The translations under genes were made by a program, and so were the position numbers. The notes below the pieces were generated by a model. That model saw only the letters and a program-made list of their open reading frames with translations. It did not search any database and was not told the origin of the DNA. 64,000 nucleotides of DNA from Sphaerochaeta pleomorpha str. Grapes (GTDB lineage Bacteria; Spirochaetota; Spirochaetia; Sphaerochaetales; Sphaerochaetaceae). The stretch covers positions 372,001 through 436,000 of the forward strand of contig NC_016633.1 in the NCBI RefSeq assembly GCF_000236685.1, read 5' to 3'. Shown one piece after another: positions 7,097-34,473 of the stretch. Positions within the stretch are counted from its first letter, which is position 1; each line of letters starts with the position of its first letter.

Positions 7097-7104
7097 GAAA
7101 CTAG

Positions 7105-10353: not shown

Positions 10354-10367
10354 GATAGGAGTGATTA

Positions 10368-11629: not shown

Positions 11630-11641
11630 GATATATACGTT
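11623..11641 (+). promoter_or_regulatory. Small inverted repeat touching the gap promoter
   Basis: AACGTA, seven bases, TACGTT: a perfect 6-bp inverted repeat whose right arm ends in the first two bases of the proposed -35 box of gap. It could be an operator, or simply chance in AT-rich DNA. Confidence 0.25.
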
Positions 11642-11669
11642 GACCCTTTACGAAGGAAAACAGTATATT
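11640..11669 (+). promoter_or_regulatory. Probable vegetative promoter of gap
   Basis: TTGACC (11640-11645), an 18-base spacer and TATATT (11664-11669) form a good sigma-70-type promoter about 41 bases before the gap start codon. A clear SD (GGAGG, 11696-11700) follows. Confidence 0.65.
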
Positions 11670-11710
11670 ATTATCGATACACATAAAGAATTCTCGGAGG
11701 AAAACAAACA

Positions 11711-12715: not shown

Positions 12716-12735
12716 GTTTTACTACTTTTACCTGT

Positions 12736-12759
12736 CAGGCCTGCATAATAGCAGGCCTG
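12736..12759 (+). terminator. Hairpin between gap and pgk
   Basis: CAGGCCTGC, a 6-base loop and GCAGGCCTG form a perfect 9-bp stem. The following bases (TGTTCCTTTA) make only a weak T-run, so this is more likely a leaky terminator or an mRNA-stabilising or processing hairpin that sets a high gap to pgk ratio. A second, imperfect hairpin (TGCAAGGGG/CTCCCTGCA) lies at about 12783-12807. Confidence 0.6.
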
Positions 12760-12829
12760 ATGTTCCTTTACAGGAATATGAATGCAAGGGGATATTCACT
12801 CCCTGCATTGCGAAAAAAAGAGGAAAACA

Positions 12830-14008
12830 ATGATTTTAAATACTATTAGAGAATGTGATTGTGCCGGCAAGAAAGTTCTTGTCCGTGTTGACTTCAATGT
12901 GCCTTTGAAAGATGGCGTCGTTACCGACGATACCAGGATCAAGGCAGCTCTCCCTACCGTGAAGTATTTGCTTGACAAGGGAGCTACCCTTATTGTCATG
13001 AGCCATTTCGGCCGTCCAAAAGGGCAGAAGAATCCTGAATTCTCCATGGCTCCCATTGCTAAGAAATTTAGTGAAGAACTCGGAAAACCCGTTATCCTGG
13101 CTTCCGATGTTATCGGTGATGAGGTCGGTGCACAGGTGAAGGCTCTCAAAGCTGGAGAAGTTCTGCTTCTTGAGAATGTACGCTTCTATGCCGGTGAAGA
13201 AAAGAATGACCCTGATTTTGCAAAGGCTTTGGCTTCTTTTGGTGATATATATGTAAATGATGCATTCGGTACAGCACACCGTGCCCATGCTTCAACGGAA
13301 GGTGTTTCACATTACCTTCCTTCCTATGCCGGTTTCCTTATCGAGAAGGAAGTCAAGTTCATGGGACCTTTGCTTGAGAACCCAGAGAAACCGTTTGTTG
13401 CCATTATTGGCGGATCCAAAGTATCGAGCAAAATCAGCGTATTGGAAAGCTTGGTCAAGACTTGTGACACCATCGTCATTGGCGGTGGAATGGCCTATAC
13501 CTTCTTGGAAGTCCAAGGGCATAAGATTGGCAAGAGCCTTGTTGAAGAAGAGTATAAAGACACCGCGCGTTCTTTCCTTGCAAAGGCAAAAGAGAAGGGT
13601 GTCTCTGTTATTCTTCCTGTCGACCATCTTTGTGGTGCTGAGTTCAGTGACACAACCCCTGCTGTCACCATCGATAGCGTTGAGATTCCAGACGGAATGA
13701 TTGGTATGGACATTGGCCCCAAGACTGTTGCTTTGGTCTGTGCCGCTGTCGAGAAAGCCAAGAGTGTCGTATGGAACGGCCCAATGGGTGTTTTTGAGTT
13801 TGATAATTTCGCGAACGGAACCTTGACCGTTGCCAAAGCCCTTGCAGCATGCTCGGGAACTACGGTAGTCGGTGGTGGAGACTCTGTCGCCGCAATCAAC
13901 AAATTCGACCTTGCAGACAAAATCAGTCATGTCAGTACCGGCGGTGGAGCTTCCCTTGAGTTCCTCGAAGGTAAAGTGCTTCCCGGAATCAAGGCATTGG
14001 AGAAATAA
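12830..14008 (+). CDS. pgk: Phosphoglycerate kinase
   Basis: Transfers phosphate from 1,3-bisphosphoglycerate to ADP in glycolysis. The 392-residue protein begins [21 protein letters not shown] near residue 17, [29 protein letters not shown] and the C-terminal GGGDSVAAI and [13 protein letters not shown] are all present. The ATG at 12830 has AGAGGA before it; the longer frame from 12782 would read through a non-conserved leader that contains a hairpin. tpiA starts four bases after the stop. Confidence 0.98.
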
Positions 14009-14012
14009 ACAG

Positions 14013-14765
14013 ATGAGAAAACCCTATATCGCAGGAAACTGGAAAATGAACATGACCCCTTCAGCTGGTGCTGCTTTTGCAAAAGAGCTTGCCAAAGCAC
14101 TTGAAGGTGTAGATACCAAAGTAATGATTGCACCACCTTTCGTTACCATCCCTGCTGTCCTCGAGGCAGTAAAGGGCAGTAATATCATTGTTGCTGCTCA
14201 GAACATGAACGATCATCTCAGTGGTGCCTACACTGGTGAGGTAAGTCCTGCTATGCTCAAAGACCTCGGGGTAACCAATGTCATTCTCGGACATAGCGAG
14301 AGAAGGGCAATTTATGGCGAAACCGATGAATTCATCAACAAAAAAGTGTTACTTGCCCTGAGTGAATCCATGGACATTGATCTTTGCGTCGGAGAGACCC
14401 TCGAGGAACGCGAGGCTGGTAAACTTGAAGAAGTTCTTACCCGCCAGGTGTCTGTCGGGCTTTCTGGTGTCAGCGCTGAACAAATGAGCCACATCACCAT
14501 TGCCTATGAGCCTGTATGGGCAATTGGGACTGGAAAGACCGCAACTCCAGAGGATGCGGATGATGCTCATGCCTTTATTCGCTCTCTTGTAGAAAAACTC
14601 TATACCAAGGGTGTTGCAGAAGAGCTAATAATACAGTATGGTGGTTCAGTGAAGGCTTCCAATGTGAAGTCTTTGATGTCCAAGAAACATATCGATGGAG
14701 CTCTTGTTGGTGGTGCTTCTCTCTCTGTAGAGCAGTTTCTCCCGATTGTTACCTTTGATAAGTGA
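14013..14765 (+). CDS. tpiA: Triosephosphate isomerase
   Basis: Interconverts dihydroxyacetone phosphate and glyceraldehyde-3-phosphate. 250 residues, starting MRKPYIAGNWKMN with the substrate lysine in NWKMN, the catalytic histidine in ILGHSERR, the catalytic glutamate in IAYEPVWAIGTG and the phosphate loop in YGGSVKASN. The ATG four bases after pgk is chosen over the long upstream open frame, which merely overlaps pgk out of frame. It is part of the gap-pgk-tpiA-secG cluster. Confidence 0.98.
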   Translation: MRKPYIAGNWKMNMTPSAGAAFAKELAKALEGVDTKVMIAPPFVTIPAVLEAVKGSNIIVAAQNMNDHLSGAYTGEVSPAMLKDLGVTNVILGHSERRAIYGETDEFINKKVLLALSESMDIDLCVGETLEEREAGKLEEVLTRQVSVGLSGVSAEQMSHITIAYEPVWAIGTGKTATPEDADDAHAFIRSLVEKLYTKGVAEELIIQYGGSVKASNVKSLMSKKHIDGALVGGASLSVEQFLPIVTFDK

Positions 14766-14781
14766 TTAGTGGAGTAGAGAA

Positions 14782-15147
14782 ATGAGTGTTTTGAGCGTGA
14801 TTTTGTTGGTATTATTTGTGATTGTCAGCCTCCTTATGATTTTCCTCGTAGCAATACAGGACGAACAGAGTGAAGGACTCGGTGGCATTTTCGGTGGCGG
14901 TAGCAATACTGCTTTCGGATCGCATGCTAGCAGCGTTGTAACGAAGGCAACGGCCGGCTTGGCTGTGACGTTCATGGTACTTGCTTTGTTTGTAGCTTTT
15001 GTTAACAAGACTCCGTCTCAAGACAAATTGCTCAACTCTGTAACCACCGAACAAGTACAGCAGACAACTGACTGGTGGAAGCAGACCGAAACTACGGCAC
15101 CTGCTGCTACAACAACCACTACGGATGCACCTACTGTAACTATCTAG
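14782..15147 (+). CDS. secG: Preprotein translocase subunit SecG
   Basis: Small integral membrane subunit of the SecYEG channel. Of 121 residues, about 3-24 and 52-74 form the two membrane helices, with the conserved loop QDEQSEGLGGIFGGG between them. After the second helix comes an unusual tail of about 45 residues rich in Thr, Ala and Gln (TTEQVQQTTDWW, then an A/T-rich run), absent from short SecG proteins. The tpiA-secG neighbourhood is common in bacteria. A hairpin terminator follows. Confidence 0.93.
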   Translation: MSVLSVILLVLFVIVSLLMIFLVAIQDEQSEGLGGIFGGGSNTAFGSHASSVVTKATAGLAVTFMVLALFVAFVNKTPSQDKLLNSVTTEQVQQTTDWWKQTETTAPAATTTTTDAPTVTI

Positions 15148-17955: not shown

Positions 17956-18576
17956 ATGATGGAAAAGGAATTTATTTCAGGTGATACGATTCGTGACAGT
18001 GCCCTCAAACTCGTGCATAAGATGTACTCTGAGGATCATTTCGTACCCGATATCATCTATGCTTCCCTGCGTGGCGGTGCATATATGGCAAATGTGTTCA
18101 GCGAATATTACAAAATGGTTCGTATCCGTGAACATGGCCGACCAGTATTCTACGCTGCAGTGGTAGCACGTTCCTACGGGTATCTCCGTAGCCAGTCAAA
18201 CGTAATGGTAGATGGTTGGACCTATTCTCCTGAACATCTTCGAACCGGTGATAAAATCCTCATCGTTGATGATATCTTTGACACTGGAAAGACGGTAAAT
18301 GCACTGGCTGATGTAATCATGAAGAAAGGCATCCCCCGTGAAGACTTGAAAATTGCCGTCTATGACTACAAGGTGCCTCTCTACAAGGAGGAAGCCCCTC
18401 TACCCATACAACCTGACTACTATTGCCGCAAGCACGTTCTCAAGACTGCTGACGATGAACGCTGGATCCATTACAACTGCCATGAGTTCCTTGGACTTAC
18501 CGCAGATGAAATTGACAGCCAGTACCAGGACAGTGAGGTACGGGACATCCTGCATTATGTCAGGGGTGACAAGTAG
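17956..18576 (+). CDS. Phosphoribosyltransferase-domain protein (HPRT-like)
   Basis: A 206-residue type-I phosphoribosyltransferase fold with the PRPP-binding signature ILIVDDIFDTGKTVNAL near residue 97 and an N-terminal LRGGAYMA loop. It resembles hypoxanthine/xanthine-guanine phosphoribosyltransferases of purine salvage, but substrate cannot be fixed from sequence. Two adjacent ATGs (17956 and 17959) follow AAGGAAG; either may be used. It is the last gene of the nusB-map run and is followed by a clear terminator. Confidence 0.85.
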   Translation: MMEKEFISGDTIRDSALKLVHKMYSEDHFVPDIIYASLRGGAYMANVFSEYYKMVRIREHGRPVFYAAVVARSYGYLRSQSNVMVDGWTYSPEHLRTGDKILIVDDIFDTGKTVNALADVIMKKGIPREDLKIAVYDYKVPLYKEEAPLPIQPDYYCRKHVLKTADDERWIHYNCHEFLGLTADEIDSQYQDSEVRDILHYVRGDK

Positions 18577-18604
18577 AAATCAAAAGCATCGCAAATACCT
18601 ACAG

Positions 18605-18622
18605 AACGGCCGAAAGGCCGTT
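18605..18622 (+). terminator. Intrinsic terminator after the phosphoribosyltransferase gene
   Basis: AACGGCC, a GAAA tetraloop and GGCCGTT followed by TTGT. A compact GNRA-capped hairpin that ends the plus-strand run that began with the SurA-like gene. Confidence 0.8.
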
Positions 18623-18697
18623 TTGTGCTTATAAGGTCCATTGATAGAAATTTTGCCTTATACCCTCTGGGCATCCGAAGGCATAGTACGGGAGATC

Positions 18698-19876
18698 TCA
18701 GTGAGATTCCCTTGCTACAGTGGCTTTTGTTGTCCCAAGGCAATCAAGATAGATTGCTTCAACATCTGAACCAAACCGCGCAAAAGAATATCGCTTGGCT
18801 TGCAACGTTGCACTCTCTCCCATGTCCTTGAGCATCTGGTCGTTTCCCAGGATCTCCTGTACGCTCCTGACGTATTCTTCGTCAGTCGTATAGGTGAAAC
18901 CGTTTTTACCGGCAATGACTACATCTTCGATACAATCATCATAACGACAGACGACGGGAAGACCGCTGGCTAACGCCTCGATGTAGGTCAAGCCCTGGGT
19001 TTCGCTTTGCGATGCAGCTACGAATATGGTTCCCAACTGGTAATACAAAGCAATATCGGAGGGCGCAATCATCCCGGTGAAAATGACATTGTCAGAAATG
19101 GACAAAGAATGGCTGAGATGTTCGAGTTTCTCACGGTAGGGACCATCACCGACAAAGAGCATGATACTGTTTTTATTCCACTTCAGGATTTCCACAAAGT
19201 TTTTAAGCAATTCCTCTGATTTCTTTTCCTGGGCAAGTCTTCCTATTGAGATCAAGACAGGGGAATTCAGAGAGATCCCTATTTTTTGTTTCAAAGCCAT
19301 GATTGTTTCCTGGGTTTCCTTTTTCTCGAATTTTACCAGGTCAATTCCTGTTGGTACTATGTGTAGCGTTGAGGTTATACCATAGTCTCTCAAAGAATCG
19401 GCAACTTTTTTTGTAGGTGCAATGATATGCTTCACTTTCCCCAATCTTGTTTGCACAAAGCAACTCACTGCCTTTTCCCCTATACGCTCATTCAATTTGA
19501 TATACCGTGCATAGTTTTCATACATCGTATGATAGGTATGGACCAAAGGTGCTTTTGATTTCTTTGCAATTACCTTTGCAAAGGTAAAGGTAAAGAATTC
19601 ACATTGAGAGTGGACAATCTCTGGGGACCACGCAAGGATATCTTTCATGATATCGGGTGGAATACGAACGGCTGCGCGTATATCCTGATATACAGGTATT
19701 TTCATAGAGCCGATGAAATACACATCATTATAGAAATAGGATAGTTCAATCGGTGATAACGTCAAAATACGAACATCATGCCCCTTTTCTGTGAGGACTT
19801 CACAAAGATTGAGGACCGAAGTCACAACGCCATTTACCGAGGGCGTAAAAAGATCTGTAGTCAATAGAATTCTCAT
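18698..19876 (-). CDS. Family 4 glycosyltransferase
   Basis: A 392-residue GT4 (GT-B fold) enzyme. The acceptor half has MRILLTTDLFTPSVNGVVTSVLNL and HTYHTMYENYARYI; the donor half has ISIGRLAQEK, FVGDGPYR, and the E-x7-E motif ETQGLTYIE followed by ALASGLPVV. The closest functional relatives by eye are diacylglycerol or phosphatidylinositol glucosyl/mannosyl transferases that make glycolipids, consistent with a spirochaete envelope, but the acceptor is inferred. The start is the ATG at 19876; an in-frame extension upstream is not conserved. It is monocistronic on the minus strand behind the preceding lipoprotein terminator. Confidence 0.88.
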   Translation of the reverse strand: MRILLTTDLFTPSVNGVVTSVLNLCEVLTEKGHDVRILTLSPIELSYFYNDVYFIGSMKIPVYQDIRAAVRIPPDIMKDILAWSPEIVHSQCEFFTFTFAKVIAKKSKAPLVHTYHTMYENYARYIKLNERIGEKAVSCFVQTRLGKVKHIIAPTKKVADSLRDYGITSTLHIVPTGIDLVKFEKKETQETIMALKQKIGISLNSPVLISIGRLAQEKKSEELLKNFVEILKWNKNSIMLFVGDGPYREKLEHLSHSLSISDNVIFTGMIAPSDIALYYQLGTIFVAASQSETQGLTYIEALASGLPVVCRYDDCIEDVVIAGKNGFTYTTDEEYVRSVQEILGNDQMLKDMGESATLQAKRYSFARFGSDVEAIYLDCLGTTKATVARESH

Positions 19877-19961
19877 AGAGCGTTTGGTTTCCTTTCCAGT
19901 ACTATAGATGGCAGAAAGGGTATGGTTACAACCCTGATACGTGAATGCAGTCCCCATTAAA

Positions 19962-19998
19962 AACCAAGGCAGGGATCATACCAGTCCCTGCCTTGGTT
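19962..19998 (-). terminator. Strong terminator after the lipoprotein gene
   Basis: A perfect 14-bp inverted repeat (AACCAAGGCAGGGA / TCCCTGCCTTGGTT) around a 9-base loop, followed on the minus strand by TTTAAT. It lies 17 bases after the stop of the lipoprotein gene. Confidence 0.9.
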
Positions 19999-20014
19999 GT
20001 CTGCCATAATGAAA

Positions 20015-21232
20015 CTAGAATGTATAATCCTCGGAAACTGAAGAAGTCCCATTCAAGGAAGTGTTGAGATTTGCCGAATCAATATCGATGGTAATTTCAA
20101 ACATTCCGTTCTTGCGGGTAGCCACGATGAGGTTAGGAACCGAAGTGGTACTAGTTGTAGTCTCCAAGGCACTTACGATATTGGAAGCATCAAGGTATTC
20201 GGCATACCCTTTGCTGATCGAAGCAGTTCCTGACAAGGTATTTGTGCCGGTATCGACAGAAAACACATACAGCGAGCTTGCCTTGGTCGAATACTTTGAA
20301 ACCAGATTCAATGCTGTCCCGGCAGTATTCGGTACAGGGTAGAAGAAAGCATTTGCATTGTAATCCTGCGAGGAATCTTTGAGCAGGATTTTTCCTGTAA
20401 TGTCAGTTTCTGAAGTACTGTCTACAGTATTGTAGAAATACAATTTCCCTTCATAGGTCAAGATGTAGAGATTGGAACCATCATAATAGAAATTAGCCAG
20501 CCGTACATCGTTGATATCGGAAATCAAATTCTTTTTACCGGAAGGATCGACAAGGTAATGCAGATAGGCAGGAGTATCAGAATCTGAACTATCGGCAAAA
20601 GAGATGATTATAGGTGCAGTAGCATCGTCTTGCCGGGTAGTCTGCATAAGGAAGTTGTCGAGGCCATAGCCTGAGATATCTATTGATGAAAAACCAACAA
20701 TCTCGGTAACAGTTGCCCCGTCGTAGGCAGCAATATCATAACCTGCATTACTGCTTCCATCCTGTCCTTCAAGAACCAGCATGGAATTCGAATACAGGTT
20801 ATTGATTGTATAGGTTGAGAGATTGGTAGAAGTATATGTATCACTGACAATAATCTTTGCTCTATTGGTCCCATCCGAATCATATCGATAGAAAGAATCA
20901 GTAAAGTTTTTTAAAACATAGAGTTTGTCATTGCTTGCAGCATAGGCAACACCCTTAATTAATCCAGAACCTTCCTCTAAAGGATCATATTTTTCACTTG
21001 CAACCAATTGTGTTGAAGCATTTGTGGAGCTGCTTGCGATTCTGTAGACACCTTCATTGGTCTGGAAATACAGATAGGGAGAATCTATTCCAAGCAACCT
21101 GGTATATACGATACCAGAAGGGGTGGTTGTCTGGCTTATCTGGCGGAATATACCCTCAGAGGCATCGCTGTTGCAGGAAACCAGAAGGGCCAGGAATACG
21201 AGGAAACCGAAAATCGGTGTTAGCTTTTTCAT
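20015..21232 (-). CDS. Predicted surface or periplasmic lipoprotein, function unknown
   Basis: A 405-residue protein with a textbook lipoprotein signal: MKKLTPIFGFLVFLALLVSC, lipobox LVSC with cysteine 20. The mature part consists of repeated beta-strand pairs (for example YLYFQTNEGVYRIA, DKLYVLKNF, SNLYILTYEGKLYFYN), suggesting a beta-propeller of readout type, rich in Ser, Thr, Asp and Tyr. I recognise no catalytic motif. It lies ten bases downstream of the outer-membrane barrel gene on the same strand, so the two are likely co-transcribed and may act together at the outer membrane. Confidence 0.8.
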   Translation of the reverse strand: MKKLTPIFGFLVFLALLVSCNSDASEGIFRQISQTTTPSGIVYTRLLGIDSPYLYFQTNEGVYRIASSSTNASTQLVASEKYDPLEEGSGLIKGVAYAASNDKLYVLKNFTDSFYRYDSDGTNRAKIIVSDTYTSTNLSTYTINNLYSNSMLVLEGQDGSSNAGYDIAAYDGATVTEIVGFSSIDISGYGLDNFLMQTTRQDDATAPIIISFADSSDSDTPAYLHYLVDPSGKKNLISDINDVRLANFYYDGSNLYILTYEGKLYFYNTVDSTSETDITGKILLKDSSQDYNANAFFYPVPNTAGTALNLVSKYSTKASSLYVFSVDTGTNTLSGTASISKGYAEYLDASNIVSALETTTSTTSVPNLIVATRKNGMFEITIDIDSANLNTSLNGTSSVSEDYTF

Positions 21233-21242
21233 GGGAATTCTC

Positions 21243-21833
21243 CTATTGACGATAGGTCACAGAAAGGGTGACCGGGATTAAACCGAATATTGCATTGTCG
21301 CTTTGGATCTCCTCAGTATAATTGAGCTCAGGAATAATCCATAAGCCAGTGTTGATACCGAAGCCCCAGTTTGTAGAAGGGTACCAGGTAAGCCCAATTT
21401 CAATATTGGCATAGAGCGTCATCAAAGAACCATCACCATATTTAATGTAGGCACCGCCAAGTCCAACGGAAATGGGAAGATCGAGTACTCCCTGTACAGG
21501 GAAATAGGTTGCCTTTGCAAAGAACGGAACGGCAGTAAACAATTCCTCTTCTGCGCTATAGTTGAAATCGTATCCGATTTCTCCTCCGATCGCCGTAGTT
21601 GGTGATGAAAAAACCTGGTAACTTATCGATCCATAGCCACCTACAGACAAACCGGTATTCCCTTCACCCAAGCCACTGACAAAATCTTGGTCAGATATAA
21701 AATAGGTAAAAGCAGGAATTGTAGTACCGACTTTAAAAGAGAACATCTGATTACCCGCATCATAATAGGTAGCAGAGAAAGCGGCCAAGGGCATCAACAC
21801 TGCTATGGAACATAGCATTAAAAACTTTTTCAT
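21243..21833 (-). CDS. Small outer-membrane beta-barrel protein
   Basis: A 196-residue exported protein: signal peptide MKKFLMLCSIAVLMPLAAFS with cleavage before ATYYD, then about eight amphipathic strands (GGYGSISYQVF, IGGEIGYDFNY, SVGLGGAYIKY, ANIEIGLTWYP, GFGINTGLWII) and a C-terminal strand LIPVTLSVTYRQ. The size fits an 8-stranded OmpW/OmpA-like barrel; similar small barrels occur in treponemes. The ATG at 21833 is chosen because GAGGTG precedes it and it opens the signal peptide. It is co-transcribed with the downstream lipoprotein gene. Confidence 0.8.
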   Translation of the reverse strand: MKKFLMLCSIAVLMPLAAFSATYYDAGNQMFSFKVGTTIPAFTYFISDQDFVSGLGEGNTGLSVGGYGSISYQVFSSPTTAIGGEIGYDFNYSAEEELFTAVPFFAKATYFPVQGVLDLPISVGLGGAYIKYGDGSLMTLYANIEIGLTWYPSTNWGFGINTGLWIIPELNYTEEIQSDNAIFGLIPVTLSVTYRQ

Positions 21834-21987
21834 AGTCACCTCATGTAATATGCTTTGATAACAAAACCAAATATTATTTGTTACAAACCACTCTATAGCT
21901 ATCATAGCCAAAAGCAAGGCATATGAGAACCATGTGGCAAGTATATCGTGAGCAAGGTCAAATTGGCAAATCATTAAAGCCCATTTG

Positions 21988-22017
21988 TTGCCTCAAACCC
22001 CTGTTTTACGATACTGT
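21988..22017 (+). promoter_or_regulatory. Probable promoter of folD-miaB
   Basis: TTGCCT (21988-21993), an 18-base spacer and TACTGT (22012-22017), about 24 bases before the folD GTG. AAGGAAGG between them serves as SD. Confidence 0.5.
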
Positions 22018-22040
22018 AGTGAAAAGTAAGGAAGGTCAAC

Positions 22041-22925
22041 GTGCAATTATTGACAGGAAAAGAAGTATCAGATGCAGTATTTGAAGATTTGGAGAAGCAA
22101 ACCTCTCAATTTATTGCAAAACATGGCTTTGCCCCTACATTGGCAGTCATCCTTGTTGGAAACGACCCTGCAAGCCAGAGTTATGTGAAAAGCAAGAAGA
22201 AAGCTTGTATTTCACTTGGTTTCGGTCATAGGGATTATGAACTAGCTGAGGACACTACCCAAGAAGTACTTCTGGACTTAGTCAAGGAACTCAATGCCGA
22301 TGCTACTGTCCATGGAATCCTTGTCCAGCTACCGCTTCCCAAAGGGCTGGACGAAAACCTTATCATTGAATCTATAGACAGTAAAAAAGACGTGGACGGC
22401 TTCCACCCGATCAATGTAGGGAAACTGCTTATTGGGCTTCCCTGTTTTGTGAGCTGTACTCCCAAGGGAGTCCTTGAAATGCTCGATTTCTACCACATTG
22501 AGACAAAAGGAAAACATGCAGTCATCATCGGAAGAAGCAATATCGTCGGTAAACCTATGGCAGCCCTGTTGATCCAGAAGGGACGGGATGCCACGGTAAC
22601 CATTTGTCATTCAAAAACCGAAAACCTAAAAGAAATTGTAAATACTGCTGATATCATCATCGCAGCAATGGGAAAACCCTTGTTTATTACCCCTGATATG
22701 GTCAAAAAGGGAGCAATAATAATTGACGTAGGGATAAACCGTGTAGAAGATCCCACACGTAAGCGAGGATATCGCCTTGTGGGTGACGTAGACTTTGAGC
22801 AGGTAAAGGATATCTGTTCGGCAATCACGCCTGTTCCCGGTGGAGTAGGGGTTATGACCATTGCCATGCTTATGAAAAATACATTGCAAGCTGCAATACA
22901 GCTTGCTCACGAGGATACTAAATGA
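22041..22925 (+). CDS. folD: Methylenetetrahydrofolate dehydrogenase/cyclohydrolase
   Basis: Bifunctional one-carbon enzyme interconverting 5,10-methylene-, methenyl- and 10-formyl-tetrahydrofolate. 294 residues, with YVKSKKKACISLG (catalytic Lys), HGILVQLPLPKGL, the Rossmann signature GRSNIVGKPMAALL and the closing PVPGGVGVMTIAML. The start is a GTG at 22041 preceded by AAGGAAGG. It shares an ATGA junction with miaB, so the two are translationally coupled. Confidence 0.97.
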   Translation: MQLLTGKEVSDAVFEDLEKQTSQFIAKHGFAPTLAVILVGNDPASQSYVKSKKKACISLGFGHRDYELAEDTTQEVLLDLVKELNADATVHGILVQLPLPKGLDENLIIESIDSKKDVDGFHPINVGKLLIGLPCFVSCTPKGVLEMLDFYHIETKGKHAVIIGRSNIVGKPMAALLIQKGRDATVTICHSKTENLKEIVNTADIIIAAMGKPLFITPDMVKKGAIIIDVGINRVEDPTRKRGYRLVGDVDFEQVKDICSAITPVPGGVGVMTIAMLMKNTLQAAIQLAHEDTK

Positions 22926-25663: not shown

Positions 25664-26395
25664 ATGAGAATCAAAGGCCAGGCCTTTGTGCTTTTATTTT
25701 CGCTGGCATTTCCCCTCTTACTTGGCGCTGCCCCACGTGAAATTACGTTCAAAGGAGAAATCTGGCAAGTGAAATCCTCTGACTCCAAGATAGCCCCGGG
25801 ACCAAACTATTGGTCAGATGCTGATGACCAGGTATGGGTAGACACCGAGGGCATGCACCTTACCATCAAGCGGAAATATGGCCGTTGGCAATGTAGCGAA
25901 GTAAACACTAAGGGCATAACAGGATATGGGACCTATACCTTTGTCGTCGATAGTTCCTTTGCCACCTATGACCCAAACGTAGTTGCAGGATTCTTTACCT
26001 GGGATTCGCAAAAGGAAGAGGCAAACAGAGAGATAGATATCGAATTTGCCGCATGGGGACAGAGCACCGGTACCCGAGGGCAATTTGTAGTACAGCCATA
26101 CACAACCGATGACAGGATAGTAACTTTCGATCCACAGATGCAGGGAACCTATTCCACCCATAGGATTGTGTGGACTCCTGATACAATCATCTTTAGCAGC
26201 TATCATGGCGAGGTAAACCCTGACGAACAGGCTTCCAAATTGAACCTTATGCAGCAATGGCAGTTTACAGGGAAACCCCCATCAAGTGGGAATGCCCATT
26301 TCAGGATCAATCTCTGGCTGTTCCAAGGGAAAAAACCTCTTGCTCCGGCAAGCCTTACGATCAAATCGTTTTCTTTTCAGCAATGGGAAGGGTAG
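25664..26395 (+). CDS. Secreted GH16-like glycoside hydrolase
   Basis: A 243-residue exported protein. Residues 1-22 are a signal peptide (FVLLFSLAFPLLLGAA). The mature part is one concanavalin-like jellyroll; the GH16 catalytic E-x-D-x-E is seen at residues 123-127 (REIDIEF), with GTYTFVVDSSF before it and THRIVWTPDTIIFSSY after, as in endo-beta-glucanases and related enzymes. It probably cuts a beta-linked polysaccharide in periplasm or medium. Its 3' end overlaps the convergent GT2 synthase gene by 35 bases; the opposite pairing of a hydrolase and a synthase suggests they act on the same polymer. Substrate is inferred only. Confidence 0.8.
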   Translation: MRIKGQAFVLLFSLAFPLLLGAAPREITFKGEIWQVKSSDSKIAPGPNYWSDADDQVWVDTEGMHLTIKRKYGRWQCSEVNTKGITGYGTYTFVVDSSFATYDPNVVAGFFTWDSQKEEANREIDIEFAAWGQSTGTRGQFVVQPYTTDDRIVTFDPQMQGTYSTHRIVWTPDTIIFSSYHGEVNPDEQASKLNLMQQWQFTGKPPSSGNAHFRINLWLFQGKKPLAPASLTIKSFSFQQWEG

Positions 26396-29213
26396 CCCCA
26401 AACCCTTTCCTCTCTTGCTTTCCCCAACCTTTCGATTTCTTCATTGCACTGAAATAACCACCTACCCTCCAGAGACTGACCAACTGGCGAACCCCAAAGT
26501 TCTCGACAACGGCCATCCATAACAAACGCAAGGTATCGTGTACCGAATAAATCTGCCGGTCGAAACTCGAGATGAGCACCGATGATACCGACACAAGAAT
26601 CCCCAAAAGAATTGTCGTAGTAAACAAGAGAAGCCCTATCGAAGGATTGAGGATTCCGGCAAAGAAGGAAAGGATGACTATCAGCAAACCCTGGGCTTCC
26701 ACAAAGGGTCCAAGCAGTTCAAATAAGAAAAAATAACTCATGCCTACCATTCCCATCCTCCCATATTTCGGATTTCCGATAATAGTTTTATGAAAAAGCA
26801 GGATATCGATTAAACCGCGATGCCATCTGTCACGTTGCCGATGCAATTGTCTCCACTTCTCAGGGACTTCGGTCCAGCAATTGGCATTGAATGCATAATC
26901 CACAGTATAAGGAATTTTCAATTCCCTCATGCTGCGTGACAGCCGAACAACCAACTCCATATCTTCACCTACCGTATCCTTTTTGTATCTGCCACTCTTG
27001 GTCAGATACCCACCGGTTTTTATGGTTCTTTCTCTATTGAAGACTCCAAAGGCCCCAGATATGATCAACAGGCAATGTATATGGGCCCAGCCAACCCTTC
27101 CGGCCATAAAGGATCTGATATATTCCAAGGACTGCAAGCGGGCGAGAAAATTTCTGGGTAGGGAAACAGAATCCAACTCACCCAATTCGACTGAACAACC
27201 ATTGACCGGGCAGATATTTCCACCGGAGGCAATACTCTCGACGGGGGAGTCAAGCATTACGGAAACAGCGCGCATCAAAGCCTCGCTTTCCAAGAGGGAA
27301 TCTGCATCAATACCACAGAAATACTCCTTGTGCGCGATGTTCAGGCCAATATTGAGAGAATCGGCTTTGCCTCCATTCACTTTATCTACGACAATAAGGT
27401 TTGGAATGGATTTGTTCGTATAGATCCCCCTTACTTTTCTGGTAGGTATCCTCTTTTGGTAAGCCCCATCGCTTTTTTTCAGTTCAAACTGGTCAATCAA
27501 AGTCTGAAGGGTAGAGTCCTTTGACCCATCGTTGACAACAATTAATTCAAAATCAGGATAGCGCTGGTTTAACAGCGAATTCACGCTCTCAATGATCCCC
27601 GCTTCTTCATTATATGCAGGGGCAATAATGGAAACAGAAGGAAGCAGATCCTTGGTAAAAAGAAAACGATAGTCTTTAACCTCCCAGAGCCTTGCCTGTT
27701 TCCTTGCACCGAAGAAAGAAACAGCAAGAATAACCAGGTAAATCAGGTTTACCGTTACCGAATAATATACAAACAGGTAATTGAAACGTGAAATATACAG
27801 TTTCCAGATATCATTCCAACCCAATTGGATTATGGTTGGGAACTCAGAAAAGAAAATTATGAAAGGGAAGAGCATGGCAACAAAGACAAGCAACAAGATA
27901 AGTGTCATTCTCTGTGGTGGTTCTGTATGGGGGGTAATAGTTTTTTTCTGTTTCTTCAAAGGTTTTATACGCAGTTTTCTCAGAATCCGTGCGTCAAGAT
28001 ACAGACGCAACTCATCTCGCATCCATGCATTCTTTGGTAAAACTTCCTTTATAATGCCAAGCAGTGCATCTTCAACCTCAATATCTTTGTTCTGGTTGAG
28101 AAAAAACACTATTGAACTGGCTTGTTTTGCTTGTACCAATTCCCTGACAAGGGTTTTTATTCTTTCAGATTCCTGGTTTTTAATCTTTGGGAGAAAATAT
28201 TCCACACGATTTGCAAGGACTTTTGCCATTATTGCCCGTTTGTGTGAAGAATGGGTACTTTCAAACCTATCCAACAGCTTTTGCATCACAAGCGGACTTT
28301 GTTCCCCCATCCGCGTAAGGCTTTCTACGATTTTCTGTTGCATCGAAGCATAACGGCTGTAGTCAAGGATAGCGTCGATATTCTCGGGTGCCATGTCTTT
28401 GGCATAGGCTTGAATCACAAATTCAATGGTATGTTTTTGGTTACTTGATAAAAAAGGATCTTTCAATAATTCTTCATGGAAGTGTTTCAGAATTGCCGAG
28501 AGCGCAAGCTTACGGAGAGAGCCATTTTTCGACTGTGCCTGGAGTATGACAAACCCACGCAATTCCTCAGCAGGATACTGTAAGGCAAAACCACAGATAA
28601 GTTTCTGCATATAGACCCTGTTGATTGTTTGCTTTTGTATGGCAAATCTGAGAAAATCTTTGTTATACGTATAGAGTACAGCATGGACACGTTTTGCGAA
28701 CCAGGGATTCATCCCTGGCAGTTTTCTCACTACCAAGGGAATGGCTTTTCTTACTTTCTGGATGGCTAGTGCATGGGCAAAAAACAAGACAACAAGTGGG
28801 CGGCGTTCTTTTTCCAAAGCTTTGAGCAATGCAAGCTGTACGTTTTTGCCCTGCAGATATTTCAAATGGTAAGACGCTTCAATACGGGTAACTGCAAAAG
28901 GGGAGGAGAGTTTTCGAAGGTATTTCTTGCAGGGCGCAGAACCCAGCAGTTTTTCCATCAGTATTTTCCTACGGTTTGCCGGTAACTCTATTTTATCCAT
29001 GATACGTTCATATATGGGGAAAAGTTCCTCTGCACGCAACGAATCCAGGTCGAACGCTTCATCGTAGGCAATTCTTGTAAGCAATTCTTCGTTGGTCTTT
29101 CGTCGCTCCCCTGTATGTTTTTCATGTATCCGAACGAAAAATGCAAAAATTAACAGAAGGCAATCGAGGATGAGAACCGAAAGCGTGATATAAAGGGAAA
29201 GCTGGAATGACAT
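26361..29213 (-). CDS. Membrane GT2 polysaccharide synthase fused to a HEAT-like N-terminal half
   Basis: A 950-residue protein. Residues about 5-27 form a membrane helix; 40-400 are a helical HEAT/ARM-like repeat region (repeats such as TRIEASYHLKYL, RKLALSAILKHF); helices near 425-447 and 470-495 lead into a GT2 catalytic domain with VVNDGSKDST, the DxD in GIDADSLLE, GEDMELVVRL and the processive Q-x-x-RW motif in RQRDRWHRG; three or more helices close the protein. This resembles PgaC/IcaA or hyaluronan-type synthases making a beta-linked polymer. The ATG at 29213 has AGGAGG nine bases upstream, inside the end of the sensor gene. It is the last gene of a three-gene operon. Confidence 0.85.
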   Translation of the reverse strand: MSFQLSLYITLSVLILDCLLLIFAFFVRIHEKHTGERRKTNEELLTRIAYDEAFDLDSLRAEELFPIYERIMDKIELPANRRKILMEKLLGSAPCKKYLRKLSSPFAVTRIEASYHLKYLQGKNVQLALLKALEKERRPLVVLFFAHALAIQKVRKAIPLVVRKLPGMNPWFAKRVHAVLYTYNKDFLRFAIQKQTINRVYMQKLICGFALQYPAEELRGFVILQAQSKNGSLRKLALSAILKHFHEELLKDPFLSSNQKHTIEFVIQAYAKDMAPENIDAILDYSRYASMQQKIVESLTRMGEQSPLVMQKLLDRFESTHSSHKRAIMAKVLANRVEYFLPKIKNQESERIKTLVRELVQAKQASSIVFFLNQNKDIEVEDALLGIIKEVLPKNAWMRDELRLYLDARILRKLRIKPLKKQKKTITPHTEPPQRMTLILLLVFVAMLFPFIIFFSEFPTIIQLGWNDIWKLYISRFNYLFVYYSVTVNLIYLVILAVSFFGARKQARLWEVKDYRFLFTKDLLPSVSIIAPAYNEEAGIIESVNSLLNQRYPDFELIVVNDGSKDSTLQTLIDQFELKKSDGAYQKRIPTRKVRGIYTNKSIPNLIVVDKVNGGKADSLNIGLNIAHKEYFCGIDADSLLESEALMRAVSVMLDSPVESIASGGNICPVNGCSVELGELDSVSLPRNFLARLQSLEYIRSFMAGRVGWAHIHCLLIISGAFGVFNRERTIKTGGYLTKSGRYKKDTVGEDMELVVRLSRSMRELKIPYTVDYAFNANCWTEVPEKWRQLHRQRDRWHRGLIDILLFHKTIIGNPKYGRMGMVGMSYFFLFELLGPFVEAQGLLIVILSFFAGILNPSIGLLLFTTTILLGILVSVSSVLISSFDRQIYSVHDTLRLLWMAVVENFGVRQLVSLWRVGGYFSAMKKSKGWGKQERKGFGATLPIAEKKTI

Positions 29214-29217
29214 AGGT

Positions 29218-31242
29218 TCAGGCCTCCTGCTGCAAGAGAGACGATGCATATAGTCCAACTACACCAATCAATTCAATAAGCATTACAGGGCATGCAAAGA
29301 AGTGGGAGATCCCAAGCCCGATTGAGCGACTCACCGTATTTTCGTTCTTATTGGACGAAAACAAGATAAAGGGTATATCGGAGTAAGCGGATTTCTTCAT
29401 GAGCTCCTTGCGCAACGTAAAGGCACTCAGCTTGCTTGTCATCAATTCACTGATAATGATATCAGGATTCTCTTTCTCTATAAGGGTTCTTGCCTCCAAG
29501 CCGTTGGAAGCAAGAAAAAGGATATAGCCCTCACGCTTGAGTGCTTCTTCTATCAGCTTTTTCTCGATCCCGGGATTTGCAGCGAGGACAATGCGGATAC
29601 TGCTGTTTGCATTCCAGACCTTTGAGGAGTCTGCAACAACTTTGTTCCCTCCCTGTCTCTTGGCAAGCTTCAGCCTATAAAGCGCTGTCTGCAAAGCCAC
29701 CTCTTCCAGTTCCTCATTGCTAAATCTTTTCGTATTTTCAATTCTGTCAGTATGGAAAAGTCCTATCGATATGGTTGAGGGAACAATGAAAGCTTCCGAA
29801 TCAGAGACAGTAGCACAGAGCCTGTCGGTCCTTTCGAGAATCTCCTTTCGCTTCGTACCCGGTAGATAGAGGGCAAACACCCCGCCCTGCAATTTGAAAT
29901 GATATTCGTCTTTTCCAGGAAATGCTTCTTTTAGGTAATACGTTAGGGTTTTAAGGGCATCATCCCCTTCAATCCTCCCAAAATCGAGATTGATATTGGA
30001 TAAATTGTCAATGCTGAGCAAAACCAAACCAAACGTTGTTTCCTCATAGTTGAACTTTTTCATTTCAGATGAGAAAAACCTATTGAAAAACATCTGGTTA
30101 TGTAAACCGGTAATCGGACAGCGGTTTTGCGCATCCTGCAGGGAATCCTGCAATGCCAGCCGCTTTTTTTCCAACTCTTGGTTTTTCTCGGTCATCAGGT
30201 CAACATTCTGCTGGAATGTGAACATAAGCGACTTAAATGGTTTGGGTAGAGGTATGCTGTATTCTTTGGTCATTTTCTCGACTAGGGGAAAGATTATGGT
30301 AATCCAAGGCATACCCTTCTTCGAGAAAACTAGGTCGAAAAACTCTTCCCAGATGCTGTTGTCTGAAAATGGGGAACTTTCAATGGTCTTTTTCTGGTAA
30401 TCAAGGACAAACCCGGATCCTTCGAAGGTTTCCCTGACTTTTTTTACCCCATAGATCGAGAAATATCGTTTGATTACCTGATTGCAGAGTTGTGGGTATC
30501 CTCCTGCCTCCATGAGATTCTTTCTCAGGGGTTTCAAGAAAAACCCGCACTCCAGATTTTTCAATATCTCAATATATTTTTTACAGTCATTGACAATAAT
30601 AGAACCATGCTGGGGACAAATAAGATGGATATCCAGCTTTAACAGCTGGTTCATCACAGGTTCCAGGATTTCATGGGAAGGCATATAGATTTCATGAAAG
30701 GTTTTCATCGATTCATGGTAATCCTCACTCGCATACAAATACCAGTTATTCGCGATTGCCCCAAACAAATCCCCTGTGATTACAGCTTTCTGTCTCTGCA
30801 AATAGGTCATTATTGCAGCTGGAAAATGAAGATATGGCGCATAGAGAAACCTAAGGTCATTCCCGTTTTTCATTTGGTAACGGAAATTATTCTGGTCTAC
30901 ATAGTAAAAAGGAGATTTCACCCCATAGAACTGAATGATGGTGGCGGCCCGTTCATGGCAGCAAATACAACCTGAAAACCCATTCTGTTCTAGCATAGGG
31001 ATTGCCGAACAGAGATCAGGATCCTGGTGGCTGACTACGATAGCCTCCAGCTTCTCCAACGGGATCAGCATCTTGACCTTGGCCATCACTATCTCAACAT
31101 CCAAGACAGACCCAGGGTCAAACAAAACTGCCGACCCCTTGTCCAAAAGGAGGTAGGGATTGCAATGCAACTCTGCAGAACACAGGTCATCTCCTACCCA
31201 CCAAAGTCCCTCAGCTATCGAAACCGGTCCTGATATGTCCAT
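29218..31242 (-). CDS. ODP-type metallo-beta-lactamase-fold sensor with degenerate GGDEF and receiver domains
   Basis: A 674-residue cytosolic protein with three domains. Residues 1-240: a metallo-beta-lactamase fold of the oxygen-binding di-iron (ODP) type, with HQDPD at 72-76, APYLHFP (His139), TGDLFG (Asp158) and PQHGS (His212). Residues about 365-540: a GGDEF domain beginning CPITGLHNQMFFNRFF but with the active-site loop read as QGGVF, so cyclase activity is unlikely. Residues about 550-670: a receiver-like domain (IRIVLAANPG, NPDIIISELMTSKLSAF, ILFSSNKNE). AAGGAG precedes the ATG, ten bases after the glycosidase-like gene. Its position before the GT2 synthase suggests redox/oxygen control of polysaccharide output. 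Confidence 0.82.
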   Translation of the reverse strand: MDISGPVSIAEGLWWVGDDLCSAELHCNPYLLLDKGSAVLFDPGSVLDVEIVMAKVKMLIPLEKLEAIVVSHQDPDLCSAIPMLEQNGFSGCICCHERAATIIQFYGVKSPFYYVDQNNFRYQMKNGNDLRFLYAPYLHFPAAIMTYLQRQKAVITGDLFGAIANNWYLYASEDYHESMKTFHEIYMPSHEILEPVMNQLLKLDIHLICPQHGSIIVNDCKKYIEILKNLECGFFLKPLRKNLMEAGGYPQLCNQVIKRYFSIYGVKKVRETFEGSGFVLDYQKKTIESSPFSDNSIWEEFFDLVFSKKGMPWITIIFPLVEKMTKEYSIPLPKPFKSLMFTFQQNVDLMTEKNQELEKKRLALQDSLQDAQNRCPITGLHNQMFFNRFFSSEMKKFNYEETTFGLVLLSIDNLSNINLDFGRIEGDDALKTLTYYLKEAFPGKDEYHFKLQGGVFALYLPGTKRKEILERTDRLCATVSDSEAFIVPSTISIGLFHTDRIENTKRFSNEELEEVALQTALYRLKLAKRQGGNKVVADSSKVWNANSSIRIVLAANPGIEKKLIEEALKREGYILFLASNGLEARTLIEKENPDIIISELMTSKLSAFTLRKELMKKSAYSDIPFILFSSNKNENTVSRSIGLGISHFFACPVMLIELIGVVGLYASSLLQQEA

Positions 31243-31251
31243 AACAACTCC

Positions 31252-34200
31252 TTATTTTGCTGAGAAACGTTCAAAATACTTCTGTATGATCGGATAACTG
31301 TCTTTCAACCTTTGTTTGAACTCAGGTTCATCCCAGTTTTTCCACGGGAATACTATCTCAGTCGGGGAATCTTGCTCAGGAAAACTGGCTAGCAGGACAC
31401 CGGAAGAGGCATCCACCAAGACAAAAGAAATGCCAATTCCTTCTGAAAGGGTAGTTGCAAGCTGGTCTTTCAGAGGGTCGGTATTGTATTTTCCAGTATC
31501 GTCCAGAACCCGTCCCCTCGAAGGATCAGAGACATTGATCCGTGTCCAGGGTATACGCACAGAAAGAACATTCCCCTCCATATTCCAAAGATTGTTCGAC
31601 TTTTCCAGGCTGCCATACCCAAGGGCACTGGTATCCTCATAGACTGAAGCGATCGGAGTGCCGACTTCCTGCGCCCGTTCTTTGTTGATGAGCTTTTGCA
31701 TAGGTTCAAAGATTCCGCTATCAACAACCCCTTCGTAAGAGGCATAGCGATAGGAAGCATAGTTGTAGGGAGGTATGACTAAAAGACGGGAGGTATCCTT
31801 ACCGGTGAGGGAAACCAGATATTCCATGCCAGAGGGGGCATGGAACATCAGTGCCTTGCCATACCTTGTCTCGCCTCTCGCCCTGCCATAGGTATCGAGC
31901 CCTAGATAGAGGTGTTCCTTGTTCAAATCGACAGGTTTGGAGAACGTAAGGTCCAGATAGAGGTAGGAGACATCCATCGACACTTCCATTTGCTCAATTT
32001 CGCCCCCGGTTTTCACTATAAGGTCAGGTACCTTGGGTTTGACCGATTCCATGGCCAGGATCCCATAGTTCTGCTCAGGGTCCACCGCATTATGCCAAAG
32101 GATTTTCCTGTCATAGGGAATCATATACGGTTCGGTAACCCAGGTCTTTTTGGCCCACTCATCCATCCATTCGAATATCACCCCGCCAGCGTACCCCTCA
32201 TGTTCGATCGCCTCGAACATCCGAACAATTCCTTCCCCCTGTTCCTGCTCGGTCATACCCCCATGGTTATAGCCATCGGGGCTCATATGGGCATTGCCCA
32301 TTCCCGTGGCCAGCCCGAATTCGGCAACCAAAGCAGGATACTTCGTATGGATGGCCATGAATTCTTGCAGATACCCGCCATAGCGAAACCTTCCGAGTTC
32401 ATCAGAATATAAGGAATATTGTGGGTCATTGTTCATGAAGTCAGGATAATTGGGATATATATGATAGGCTCCGAATAAGCCGCCTTTCATCTTTTTCCCG
32501 AGCTCAATATGGTTTATATCGACAGTAGTACGGTCATTGTATTCGTTTTTCTTTACCCCATTGGCCTCCCGCTCACTCGGATGGTCCAGAGCATCGAGGG
32601 TGGGCCAGTTTACGATTGCAACCGGATTCTGCCAGCCATAGGTCTGTTCCTGGTAGCTAAGGGCATAGTCTGCACTCTCTGCCAGCCAGGCTTCTGTCGG
32701 GGTTCCCAGTTCATTGGTAAAAAGGTAATCCCCATGGAAAGAATGTCCCTTGTTAAGCAAATCGGTCGCTTCGACCTCCTGTGGCTCCAATTCCCTGCCG
32801 ACAAGCAACCCAAGGACATAGGGTGACACATCAACTCTATACTCACCGAAGGCCCTGCCTCTGCGCTCTGCAATGGAAGCCTTCCCATGGATTGCATCGA
32901 CTACGTATCGAATTTCCTGCTGGTAGGAGATTCGGTATTCCTCACTGAGGTAATCGTTTCCCGCAGGTTCTTCTTCCGGCCAGATTTCCTGCAGCAGGTA
33001 GAGCATTTGTTCAGGATGGAGACGGTTGTATACGTCCAGAGCCTGGTAGAACTGGGGGTCAAGGAGCGTGTAGATTCGAATTGTATTCGCTTTCATAGCC
33101 CCTATCTGCTCAAGGAACCGGTAATACACTGCTTTATCAGCAGGGAATTCCGTATACCATCGGCCTGGCAATGCGATGCCAATATTGACCCCTCGGATAA
33201 AAAAGTCTTTCCAGCCCTCCGTAGAATACACTTGGAGCAGCTTGCCTTTGGTACGGGAAACCAAAGACACCCCGTCCTGCTGGTAAATCTCGACCTTTGG
33301 ATTAGGGAGGGTCACCTGTTTTCTTTGTTCAGCCTCTTTGTAGATGCCATTGAGCAAGGGAATATAGGTTTTCCAGTAGAAAGAATCGGAGCTGTCTAAT
33401 TTGGTGTCGGGAACCTTTTGCATGCGTGCAAGGACACCCTCCCAAAAGTAGAAACGCGGCTTATAGTTCAATGCCGCATAATTGCCACCAAGATAGTAGG
33501 TCGTATGAAAGGCTGTCTCATTGCGTATTATTGCGGGGAAAACAGGGGCCAGGCCTTTGGCTTTCAATTTTGCAAGGCCATTATCGGTTACATCAAGCGA
33601 ATAATAGGCAAGGGTTTCAGCATCTGACAGGGTAGAGACAACATCGAACAGACCTTGGTAGGGCCCCGTAACCGAAATACCGGTAAGCTCTGTCCCCTTG
33701 GCGGTAAAGGTCAATTCGTTCCCTTTCTTGCCGACATCATTTTCATCCAGGATAAGGATGTCGGACTCTTCGTTGACCAAAACATATCCATTCCCCGTAA
33801 AGTCCCATGTCCTGCCTGTGGTTTTTTCATACCGGTTTCGTTCCCACTCTACAGTGACGCCTTCCTCTGCCAGGTCCTTGACATAATGACCTACCCAGCC
33901 AGACCATTTTGTCTGCAAAAGGCTTTCCATCTGTGCCCTGACTGAAGGATGGGTAGGAGTTCCAAAGGTATTGTATTCGGCAACAACGGTATTTGCCCTG
34001 TCTGTGTTCAAAAAATCGCGAATGGAGTGTACGTCAGTCTGGGTCAATCCCCCATAGATCAGGTTGGAAACCGCTACATCGGGGACAATTCCTACCTGTT
34101 CTTTGCGGTATATCCCATAGGTATCGGCAATATAGAGCAAATCGGCCTTTTCAGACAGAAAAGGCAGAGGTTTCTCATAATATTTGCCGTTGCTGTCCCA

Positions 34201-34473
34201 ATGCAAACCATAATACGAATCGGAATAGGCAAAGGTTTTCCCCTCTACCGGTATAACTTTTTTCTGCTTGAGAAACCAGAAAAGGCCTGTATGTTCCCGT
34301 ACCTTTCCATTGGGAACGGTTTTGTCATAGACTGCGGTAACAACCGGCAGATTAGGCTTCAAAACAAAGCGAATCATTGGTAGACAGACAAGTATCAATG
34401 CTACAAAGAGTATACAAAAGAAGACAATGACTTTCTTTTTTCGTTTGACAGGTGGTTTTTTTGGTTTTCCCAT
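31252..34473 (-). CDS. Membrane-anchored TIM-barrel glycosidase-like protein
   Basis: A 1073-residue protein with a basic start (GKPKKPPVKRKKK) and one membrane helix (about 16-38), the rest being outside the cytoplasm. The central region (about 430-840) reads as a (beta/alpha)8 barrel of GH2/GH5 kind: FFIRGVNIGIALPG, NTIRIYTLLDP, YVLGLLVGRELEP (possible acid/base Glu), YPALVAEFGLATG (possible nucleophile Glu) and GGVIFEWMDEWAKKTW. A beta-rich C-terminal region follows. It could trim, transfer or export the polymer made by the GT2 synthase two genes down. The ATG at 34473 has no SD; a TTG at 34491 is possible. Confidence 0.72.
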   Translation of the reverse strand: MGKPKKPPVKRKKKVIVFFCILFVALILVCLPMIRFVLKPNLPVVTAVYDKTVPNGKVREHTGLFWFLKQKKVIPVEGKTFAYSDSYYGLHWDSNGKYYEKPLPFLSEKADLLYIADTYGIYRKEQVGIVPDVAVSNLIYGGLTQTDVHSIRDFLNTDRANTVVAEYNTFGTPTHPSVRAQMESLLQTKWSGWVGHYVKDLAEEGVTVEWERNRYEKTTGRTWDFTGNGYVLVNEESDILILDENDVGKKGNELTFTAKGTELTGISVTGPYQGLFDVVSTLSDAETLAYYSLDVTDNGLAKLKAKGLAPVFPAIIRNETAFHTTYYLGGNYAALNYKPRFYFWEGVLARMQKVPDTKLDSSDSFYWKTYIPLLNGIYKEAEQRKQVTLPNPKVEIYQQDGVSLVSRTKGKLLQVYSTEGWKDFFIRGVNIGIALPGRWYTEFPADKAVYYRFLEQIGAMKANTIRIYTLLDPQFYQALDVYNRLHPEQMLYLLQEIWPEEEPAGNDYLSEEYRISYQQEIRYVVDAIHGKASIAERRGRAFGEYRVDVSPYVLGLLVGRELEPQEVEATDLLNKGHSFHGDYLFTNELGTPTEAWLAESADYALSYQEQTYGWQNPVAIVNWPTLDALDHPSEREANGVKKNEYNDRTTVDINHIELGKKMKGGLFGAYHIYPNYPDFMNNDPQYSLYSDELGRFRYGGYLQEFMAIHTKYPALVAEFGLATGMGNAHMSPDGYNHGGMTEQEQGEGIVRMFEAIEHEGYAGGVIFEWMDEWAKKTWVTEPYMIPYDRKILWHNAVDPEQNYGILAMESVKPKVPDLIVKTGGEIEQMEVSMDVSYLYLDLTFSKPVDLNKEHLYLGLDTYGRARGETRYGKALMFHAPSGMEYLVSLTGKDTSRLLVIPPYNYASYRYASYEGVVDSGIFEPMQKLINKERAQEVGTPIASVYEDTSALGYGSLEKSNNLWNMEGNVLSVRIPWTRINVSDPSRGRVLDDTGKYNTDPLKDQLATTLSEGIGISFVLVDASSGVLLASFPEQDSPTEIVFPWKNWDEPEFKQRLKDSYPIIQKYFERFSAK

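Follow-up and report, generated by a model that had tools for sequence, protein, structure and literature searches.

A conserved gene cluster for a HEAT-GT2 synthase, a glycosidase-like protein and an ODP-pseudoGGDEF-pseudoreceiver regulator in Sphaerochaeta pleomorpha

The allosteric control of exopolysaccharide (EPS) synthases is usually framed around c-di-GMP. For the ydaJKLMN operon of B. subtilis and the pssA-E operon of Listeria, two reports describe a degenerate GGDEF protein that retains its I-site, binds c-di-GMP and is needed for EPS (PMC7064775, PMC4125290). The mixed-linkage glucan synthase RiGT2 of Romboutsia carries a C-terminal PilZ domain, as in BcsA (PMC10374906). Oxygen or redox state is sensed by VcBhr-DGC, AxPDEA1 and DgcO through heme or hemerythrin sensors, and these enzymes alter c-di-GMP levels catalytically; flavodiiron or lactamase-fold sensors are not mentioned in the review of c-di-GMP network sensors (PMC8846402). 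The T. denticola ODP is an oxygen sensor, which is a stand-alone protein and acts on chemotaxis (PMC7666581).

Here we analyzed a stretch of 64,000 nucleotides (the window) from Sphaerochaeta pleomorpha str. Grapes, which is part of a single-contig 3.59-Mb genome. A preliminary description had proposed that three tightly spaced minus-strand genes and a converging GH16-like gene form a candidate new polysaccharide system, in which a possible oxygen/redox sensor takes the genetic position of c-di-GMP control. All four genes were found at the proposed positions (Table 1), and the original observation of the cluster was confirmed. The interpretation as a whole was partly supported. In the literature searched, whose coverage leaves most subscription papers outside, we found no description of the three-gene system, of ODP-GGDEF fusions or ODP-GGDEF-receiver proteins, of HEAT-repeat polysaccharide synthases or of YaiO/HEAT/GT2 operons.

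Table 1. Genes of the cluster, in window positions
Gene product	Position	Strand	Features
Glycosidase-like protein (GHL)	31252..34473	-	Membrane-anchored GH157/GH72-like clan GH-A TIM-barrel protein (predicted); ATG at 34473
ODP(di-iron)-pseudoGGDEF-pseudoreceiver regulator	29218..31242	-	Pfam ODP, GGDEF and receiver matches
HEAT-GT2 synthase	26361..29213	-	GT2 domain match and HEAT solenoid
GH16-like hydrolase, secreted	25664..26395	+	Convergent; catalytic motif E123-I-D-I-E127

Gene layout and the encoded proteins

The minus-strand genes are arranged head to tail in the order GHL, regulator and synthase, with a gap of 9 bp between the first two. The longest ORF of the synthase gene is 26361-29258(-), with a TTG start at 29258. 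The ATG at 29213 is likelier as the start, to judge from the GGAGG that precedes it and the stop codon of the regulator gene 4 bp before it. Residue numbers are counted from the TTG ORFs (29258 for the synthase and 34491 for GHL). At their 3′ ends, the GH16-like and synthase genes share 35 bp (26361-26395). In all 19 loci for which both genes were available, their 3′ ends overlap, and in 14 the overlap likewise measures exactly 35 bp. In the promoter and terminator scan, the counts did not exceed those of shuffled sequence.

The synthase is composed of an N-terminal TM segment, a cytosolic HEAT solenoid, a processive GT2 core and a TM bundle. The GT2 domain was matched by Pfam (E 2.7e-19), and the processive unit corresponds to residues ~535-955. 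Among 29 members, D577, D651/D653, G764-E-D766 and Q808..R811-W812 are invariant. Thus, the D, DxD (651-653), (T/G)ED (GED, 764-766) and Q(Q/R)xRW (QxxRW, 808-812) motifs of processive GT2 polysaccharide synthases are all present together with the flanking TM helices. The HEAT match is weak in the single window sequence (E 0.07); the family profile matches alphaRep/HEAT structures down to 1.1e-29, and the AlphaFold model (pLDDT 85) possesses an all-helical solenoid at residues ~76-430. In split homologues, HEAT is a separately annotated gene directly before a shorter GT2 gene. These results bear out the earlier assignment as a processive HEAT-fused GT2 synthase.

The best fold matches of the synthase were hyaluronan synthase (Z 26), cellulose synthase BcsA (Z ~22-24) and chitin synthase (Z 22). 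The best NCBIfam model was PgaC/IcaA (TIGR03937) at 115.8 bits, far under its cut-off of 422 bits. No PilZ domain was detected in the synthase, whereas the c-di-GMP-gated BcsA type has one at its C-terminus. Maximum-likelihood analysis united the HEAT-fused synthases in one group (100/99) within a wider HEAT-GT2 family and placed PgaC, NodC, BcsA and YaiP outside it, though on long branches. Membership of the BcsA or PgaC family was rejected on these grounds. E. coli YaiP was rejected as a close relative, since it aligns over only ~120 residues (28% identity, E 4e-6) and groups with PgaC on very long branches. The Romboutsia-type synthase was set apart by its description, because RiGT2 has a PilZ domain and the window synthase does not.

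The model of GHL comprises an N-terminal TM helix (residues ~17-44), an N-domain, a TIM barrel (~400-800) and a C-terminal beta domain. No Pfam family was assigned to GHL, except GH72 in one of the 26 members, and a sequence-profile search against the PDB gave no match at E <= 1. The fold search placed the barrel closest to the GH157 endo-beta-1,3-glucanase (Z 33.3, rmsd 2.3, 315 residues, 18% identity), clearly ahead of GH2 proteins (Z 27-28); the matched GH157 structure contains laminari-oligosaccharides, and GH72 Gel4 was also matched. The putative catalytic residues Glu567 and Glu724 are invariant in the 26 members. With the modelled TIM barrel and two predicted catalytic Glu residues, GHL has the features of clan GH-A, and its earlier description as a membrane-anchored, glycosidase-like TIM-barrel protein agrees with the model. 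Since the N-terminus before the TM helix is basic (GKPKKPPVKRKKK), the sequence suggests that the barrel is located outside the cytosol.

In the GH16-like protein, the ExDxE motif is intact. It aligns weakly with 1,3-1,4-beta-glucanase and ExoK, and its match to the ExoK model (1.5e-5) is far under the cut-off. Of 16 members, 4 had a Pfam GH16 match, the best at 2.4e-4, and the profile gave no match at E <= 0.1 in the PDB. In five loci outside the Sphaerochaeta-like group (L125, L126, L129, L130, and L131), a GH16-like gene also lies next to the synthase gene or in its vicinity. In 15 Sphaerochaeta-type loci (L077-L088, L045, L048, and L056), a CE4 polysaccharide deacetylase gene directly adjoins the GH16 gene. 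This is not the case in the window, and a homologue is encoded elsewhere in the same genome (C1:2540905-2541708).

The regulator was matched by the Pfam models for ODP (3.9e-53), GGDEF (4.1e-16) and receiver (1.8e-8). For ODP (PF19583), the score was 180.7 bits against a cut-off of 27.2. The di-iron ligand set is present (H72, D74, D76, H139, D158, and H212), and it aligns with that of two solved ODPs, 6qrq and 6qnm, which we take to be those of T. maritima and T. denticola. Since the ligands match those of solved ODPs, an oxygen/redox input to the regulator is plausible. Among 40 near-full-length regulators, H72, D/E74, D76, H139, D158 and H212 are kept in 34, and all six were lost together in the other six, which belong to one spirochaete clade. 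In these (L057, L058, L067, L069, L073, and L076), the ODP domain is retained and the iron ligands are replaced, and thus they offer a natural iron-less control.

The output domains have lost the residues for catalysis and phosphorylation. The window regulator possesses GGVFA in place of GG(D/E)EF, and the GG(D/E)EF expected of a diguanylate cyclase was found in none of the 40 regulators. The canonical RxxD I-site is also absent from all 40; the single RxxD, in L074, is off position. At the phosphoacceptor position of the receiver, Asp is replaced by Glu599 in the window and by Glu in 38 of the 40; the two Fusibacter regulators have Asp. Accordingly, the earlier view of an ODP-type protein joined to a dead-looking GGDEF domain and a receiver was correct as to the parts, and that the receiver is degenerate as well had been missed. 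In other relatives, ODP is missing or barely recognizable, and the pseudo-GGDEF and receiver domains are still there. Because four relatives of this type (L125, L128, L129, and L132) have Asp at the phospho-site in the profile alignment, the Asp-to-Glu change is typical for the ODP-bearing branch and not universal.

Conservation of the cluster and the wider HEAT-GT2 class

Among 32 relatives in GTDB genomes (Spirochaetota, Clostridia, and Chloroflexota), the regulator gene adjoins the synthase gene in 28, and 25 have GHL too. In three of the four relatives without an adjacent regulator, the locus is cut by the contig end. Sphaerochaeta and its near relatives have the order GHL-regulator-synthase; most of the remaining relatives have regulator-synthase-GHL. 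Thus, the triad is shared by many anaerobic bacteria, is conserved in two gene orders and moves as a unit.

Within the genus, the synthase was found in 14 of 26 genomes, and in 10 of the 13 good ones. Among 393 genomes of the phylum, the synthase was detected in 27, near-full-length regulators in 13 and GHL in 10. Every genome with GHL also has the synthase. The same holds for 12 of the 13 regulator genomes; in the 13th (G162), the gene next to the regulator is truncated by a contig end within its HEAT-coding part. The hypergeometric p for co-occurrence of regulator and synthase is ~3e-17 (13/13) or 9e-15 (12/13), values that are only indicative because the genomes are not independent. Distance matrices of the three proteins from 33 loci were closely correlated (Mantel r 0.977, 0.923, and 0.910). 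The proposal that the association is conserved across genomes therefore survived its co-occurrence test, and the genes are co-inherited.

In one Clostridia contig (L071), both forms occur: a single string (6951-15125) comprises an intact REC-GGDEF gene and the genes for the ODP regulator, the fused HEAT-GT2 synthase and GHL, and nearby, on the other strand, is a split GT2, HEAT and GHL set (18424-22922).

The window synthase also fits the definition of a wider class, in which this GT2 subfamily has a HEAT solenoid either in the same protein or encoded next to it. HEAT-GT2 pairs were obtained from plasmid searches in Mesorhizobium, Erythrobacter, Salinirubellus (an archaeon), Deinococcus, Legionella, Bacteroides and Planococcus. 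The class extends over Pseudomonadota, Bacteroidota, Deinococcota and haloarchaea, and a stand-alone receiver often occupies the position of the regulator. Such receivers lie upstream of HEAT-GT2 in Mesorhizobium, Erythrobacter, Salinirubellus, Emticicia and spirochaetes (L094-L096), and their Asp is intact in nearly all, Emticicia being an exception. Since the receiver-like end of the regulator occupies the receiver position of the wider class, we propose that this end may face the synthase. Relatives of GHL were found in Deinococcus, Planococcus and Paenibacillus. Near the HEAT-GT2 genes of L090, L091, L095 and L096, a ~450-aa protein without a Pfam match is encoded beside a ~610-aa protein with a deacetylase-like domain.

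Of the claim of a new polysaccharide system, the conserved cluster stands; the window synthase is not a new kind on its own, since it belongs to a fused, regulator-rich branch of the wider class. We name the HEAT-GT2 synthases as a class that spans bacteria and haloarchaea.

Proposed mechanism and alternatives

The following account of the polymer, of the docking, of how control runs and of the signal is our inference from these observations. The cluster may encode a membrane EPS synthase of beta-glucan type with a pseudoenzyme regulatory subunit that acts by protein contact, a reading to which we give an even chance. The sugar polymerized by the GT2 subunit would most probably be glucose, giving a glucan with beta-1,3 bonds, possibly of mixed linkage, and the chain would be threaded through the TM channel of the same subunit. 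On the outer side of the inner membrane, the anchored GH157-like protein would take the nascent chain and cut, transglycosylate or branch it, and the secreted GH16-like enzyme would trim or recycle the polymer. The ODP-pseudoGGDEF-pseudoreceiver protein would serve in the cytosol as a regulatory subunit dedicated to the synthase. By docking on the HEAT solenoid, its receiver-like end would gate the synthase through contact, with neither phosphotransfer nor c-di-GMP synthesis involved, and its N-terminal ODP domain would give an Fe/O2-redox input in most lineages.

Several observations count against this reading. The iron-less clade keeps the operon, some relatives lack ODP, and intact GGDEF and HD-GYP genes adjoin the operon in some loci. 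As for the beta-glucan, an amino-sugar polymer fits too, since CE4 deacetylase genes lie beside GH16 and PgaC/IcaA is the nearest family model of the GT2.

One alternative places c-di-GMP (or GTP) as the main signal. The degenerate GGDEF domain would be a nucleotide receptor like YdaK or PssE, and ODP would merely modulate it. GGDEF proteins were detected in all 26 genus genomes (6-36 per genome), and PilZ in none of the 26, although positive controls were detected; c-di-GMP is thus probably made in the genus and must act via other receptors. Intact GGDEF or HD-GYP genes share a gene string with the operon in L045, L046, L061 and L071. Specifically, the REC-GGDEF gene of L071 precedes the regulator gene by 22 bp, and a REC-HD-GYP gene of L045 precedes GHL by ~24 bp. 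The operons with YdaK and PssE are analogous, their degenerate GGDEF proteins binding c-di-GMP, and Asp412 on a beta-strand of the regulator is invariant. However, the I-site is gone from every regulator, and c-di-GMP binding by YdaK requires the I-site Arg. We regard c-di-GMP as a possible but somewhat unlikely main signal. The earlier claim of an oxygen/redox sensor in the place of c-di-GMP stands in part: an ODP domain with its ligands is there and PilZ is not, but replacement of c-di-GMP is made doubtful by the intact c-di-GMP enzymes nearby in several relatives and the number of GGDEF proteins per genome.

With respect to the product, a partly deacetylated polymer of amino sugars, similar to PNAG or chitosan, could be made instead of a beta-glucan. 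The rank of PgaC/IcaA among the family models, the hyaluronan and chitin synthases among the structural neighbours, and the CE4 deacetylases of the 15 loci and of the window's genome are consistent with this. Nevertheless, the PgaC/IcaA score is far from its cut-off, PgaC, NodC and BcsA branch outside the HEAT-GT2 group, and GHL is similar to beta-1,3-glucan enzymes. We consider an amino-sugar polymer unlikely; the resemblances of GHL and the GH16-like protein suggest a beta-glucan.

It is also doubtful, in our estimate, that the ODP domain is a peroxide/O2/NO-handling enzyme or a metal-free scaffold that mainly holds the regulator together. Such a role would suit a di-iron fold common to flavodiiron reductases, the joint loss of the ligands in a clade that keeps the operon, and the versions with only GGDEF and receiver domains. 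However, the regulator gene is without a flavodoxin domain or an electron donor, all six ligands persist in most members, and the T. denticola ODP is an oxygen sensor (PMC7666581). Oxygen sensing by the regulator is plausible. Since the iron-less clade keeps the operon and ODP-less relatives exist, it cannot be what the regulator mainly does in every lineage.

A chance or one-off neighbourhood is ruled out by the conservation of the set across several phyla in two gene orders, and an active cyclase or a phosphorylated receiver by the residues at the active and acceptor sites.

GGDEF proteins are numerous in this genus and PilZ is undetectable, and the gene in the synthase-regulator position encodes a protein without cyclase and phosphoacceptor residues, whose di-iron ligands are mostly kept. 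The switching of polymer synthesis without PilZ becomes directly testable. If the oxygen link is true, strict anaerobes would tie oxygen exposure directly to a protective matrix. More generally, and only tentatively, the wider class might be a widespread kind of polysaccharide synthase run by direct contact between a receiver or receiver-like domain and a HEAT platform; in anaerobes, a pseudoenzyme might report Fe/O2 status to it without phosphorylation or c-di-GMP.

Comparison with known systems

The closest operons, ydaJKLMN and pssA-E, likewise combine a GT2-type synthase, a glycosidase gene and a degenerate GGDEF protein (PMC7064775, PMC4125290). The accessible portions of these reports mention no ODP, receiver or HEAT components, whereas the GGDEF domain encoded in the window has lost the I-site and lies between a di-iron domain and a pseudo-receiver. 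By analogy, the cluster may work like the yda and pss operons, but it lacks their defining I-site.

The ODPs of T. denticola and T. maritima (6qnm and 6qrq) share the fold and the metal-ligand residues with the regulator. They are stand-alone proteins, whereas the window ODP is fused to a pseudo-GGDEF and a pseudo-receiver domain, with a synthase gene adjacent. VcBhr-DGC, AxPDEA1 and DgcO resemble the regulator in that an oxygen/redox sensor domain is tied to c-di-GMP domains, linking O2 to EPS or biofilm. However, these enzymes are catalytic, while both output domains of the window regulator appear catalytically dead from their residues, and the sensor fold is another one.

RiGT2 and BcsA are, like the window synthase, processive membrane GT2 proteins with D, D, D and QxxRW and a possible beta-glucan product; they carry a C-terminal PilZ domain, and the window synthase an N-terminal HEAT solenoid instead. 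The REC - YaiO/TPR - HEAT - GT2 strings of Mesorhizobium, Erythrobacter, Salinirubellus and L095/L096 share the GT2 family (~37-43% identity), a HEAT partner and an adjacent receiver with the cluster. In these strings, HEAT and the receiver are separate genes with the phospho-Asp intact, and an outer-membrane YaiO/TPR protein is often encoded at the position of GHL, whereas in the window HEAT and the receiver-like domain are parts of fusion proteins and the acceptor is Glu.
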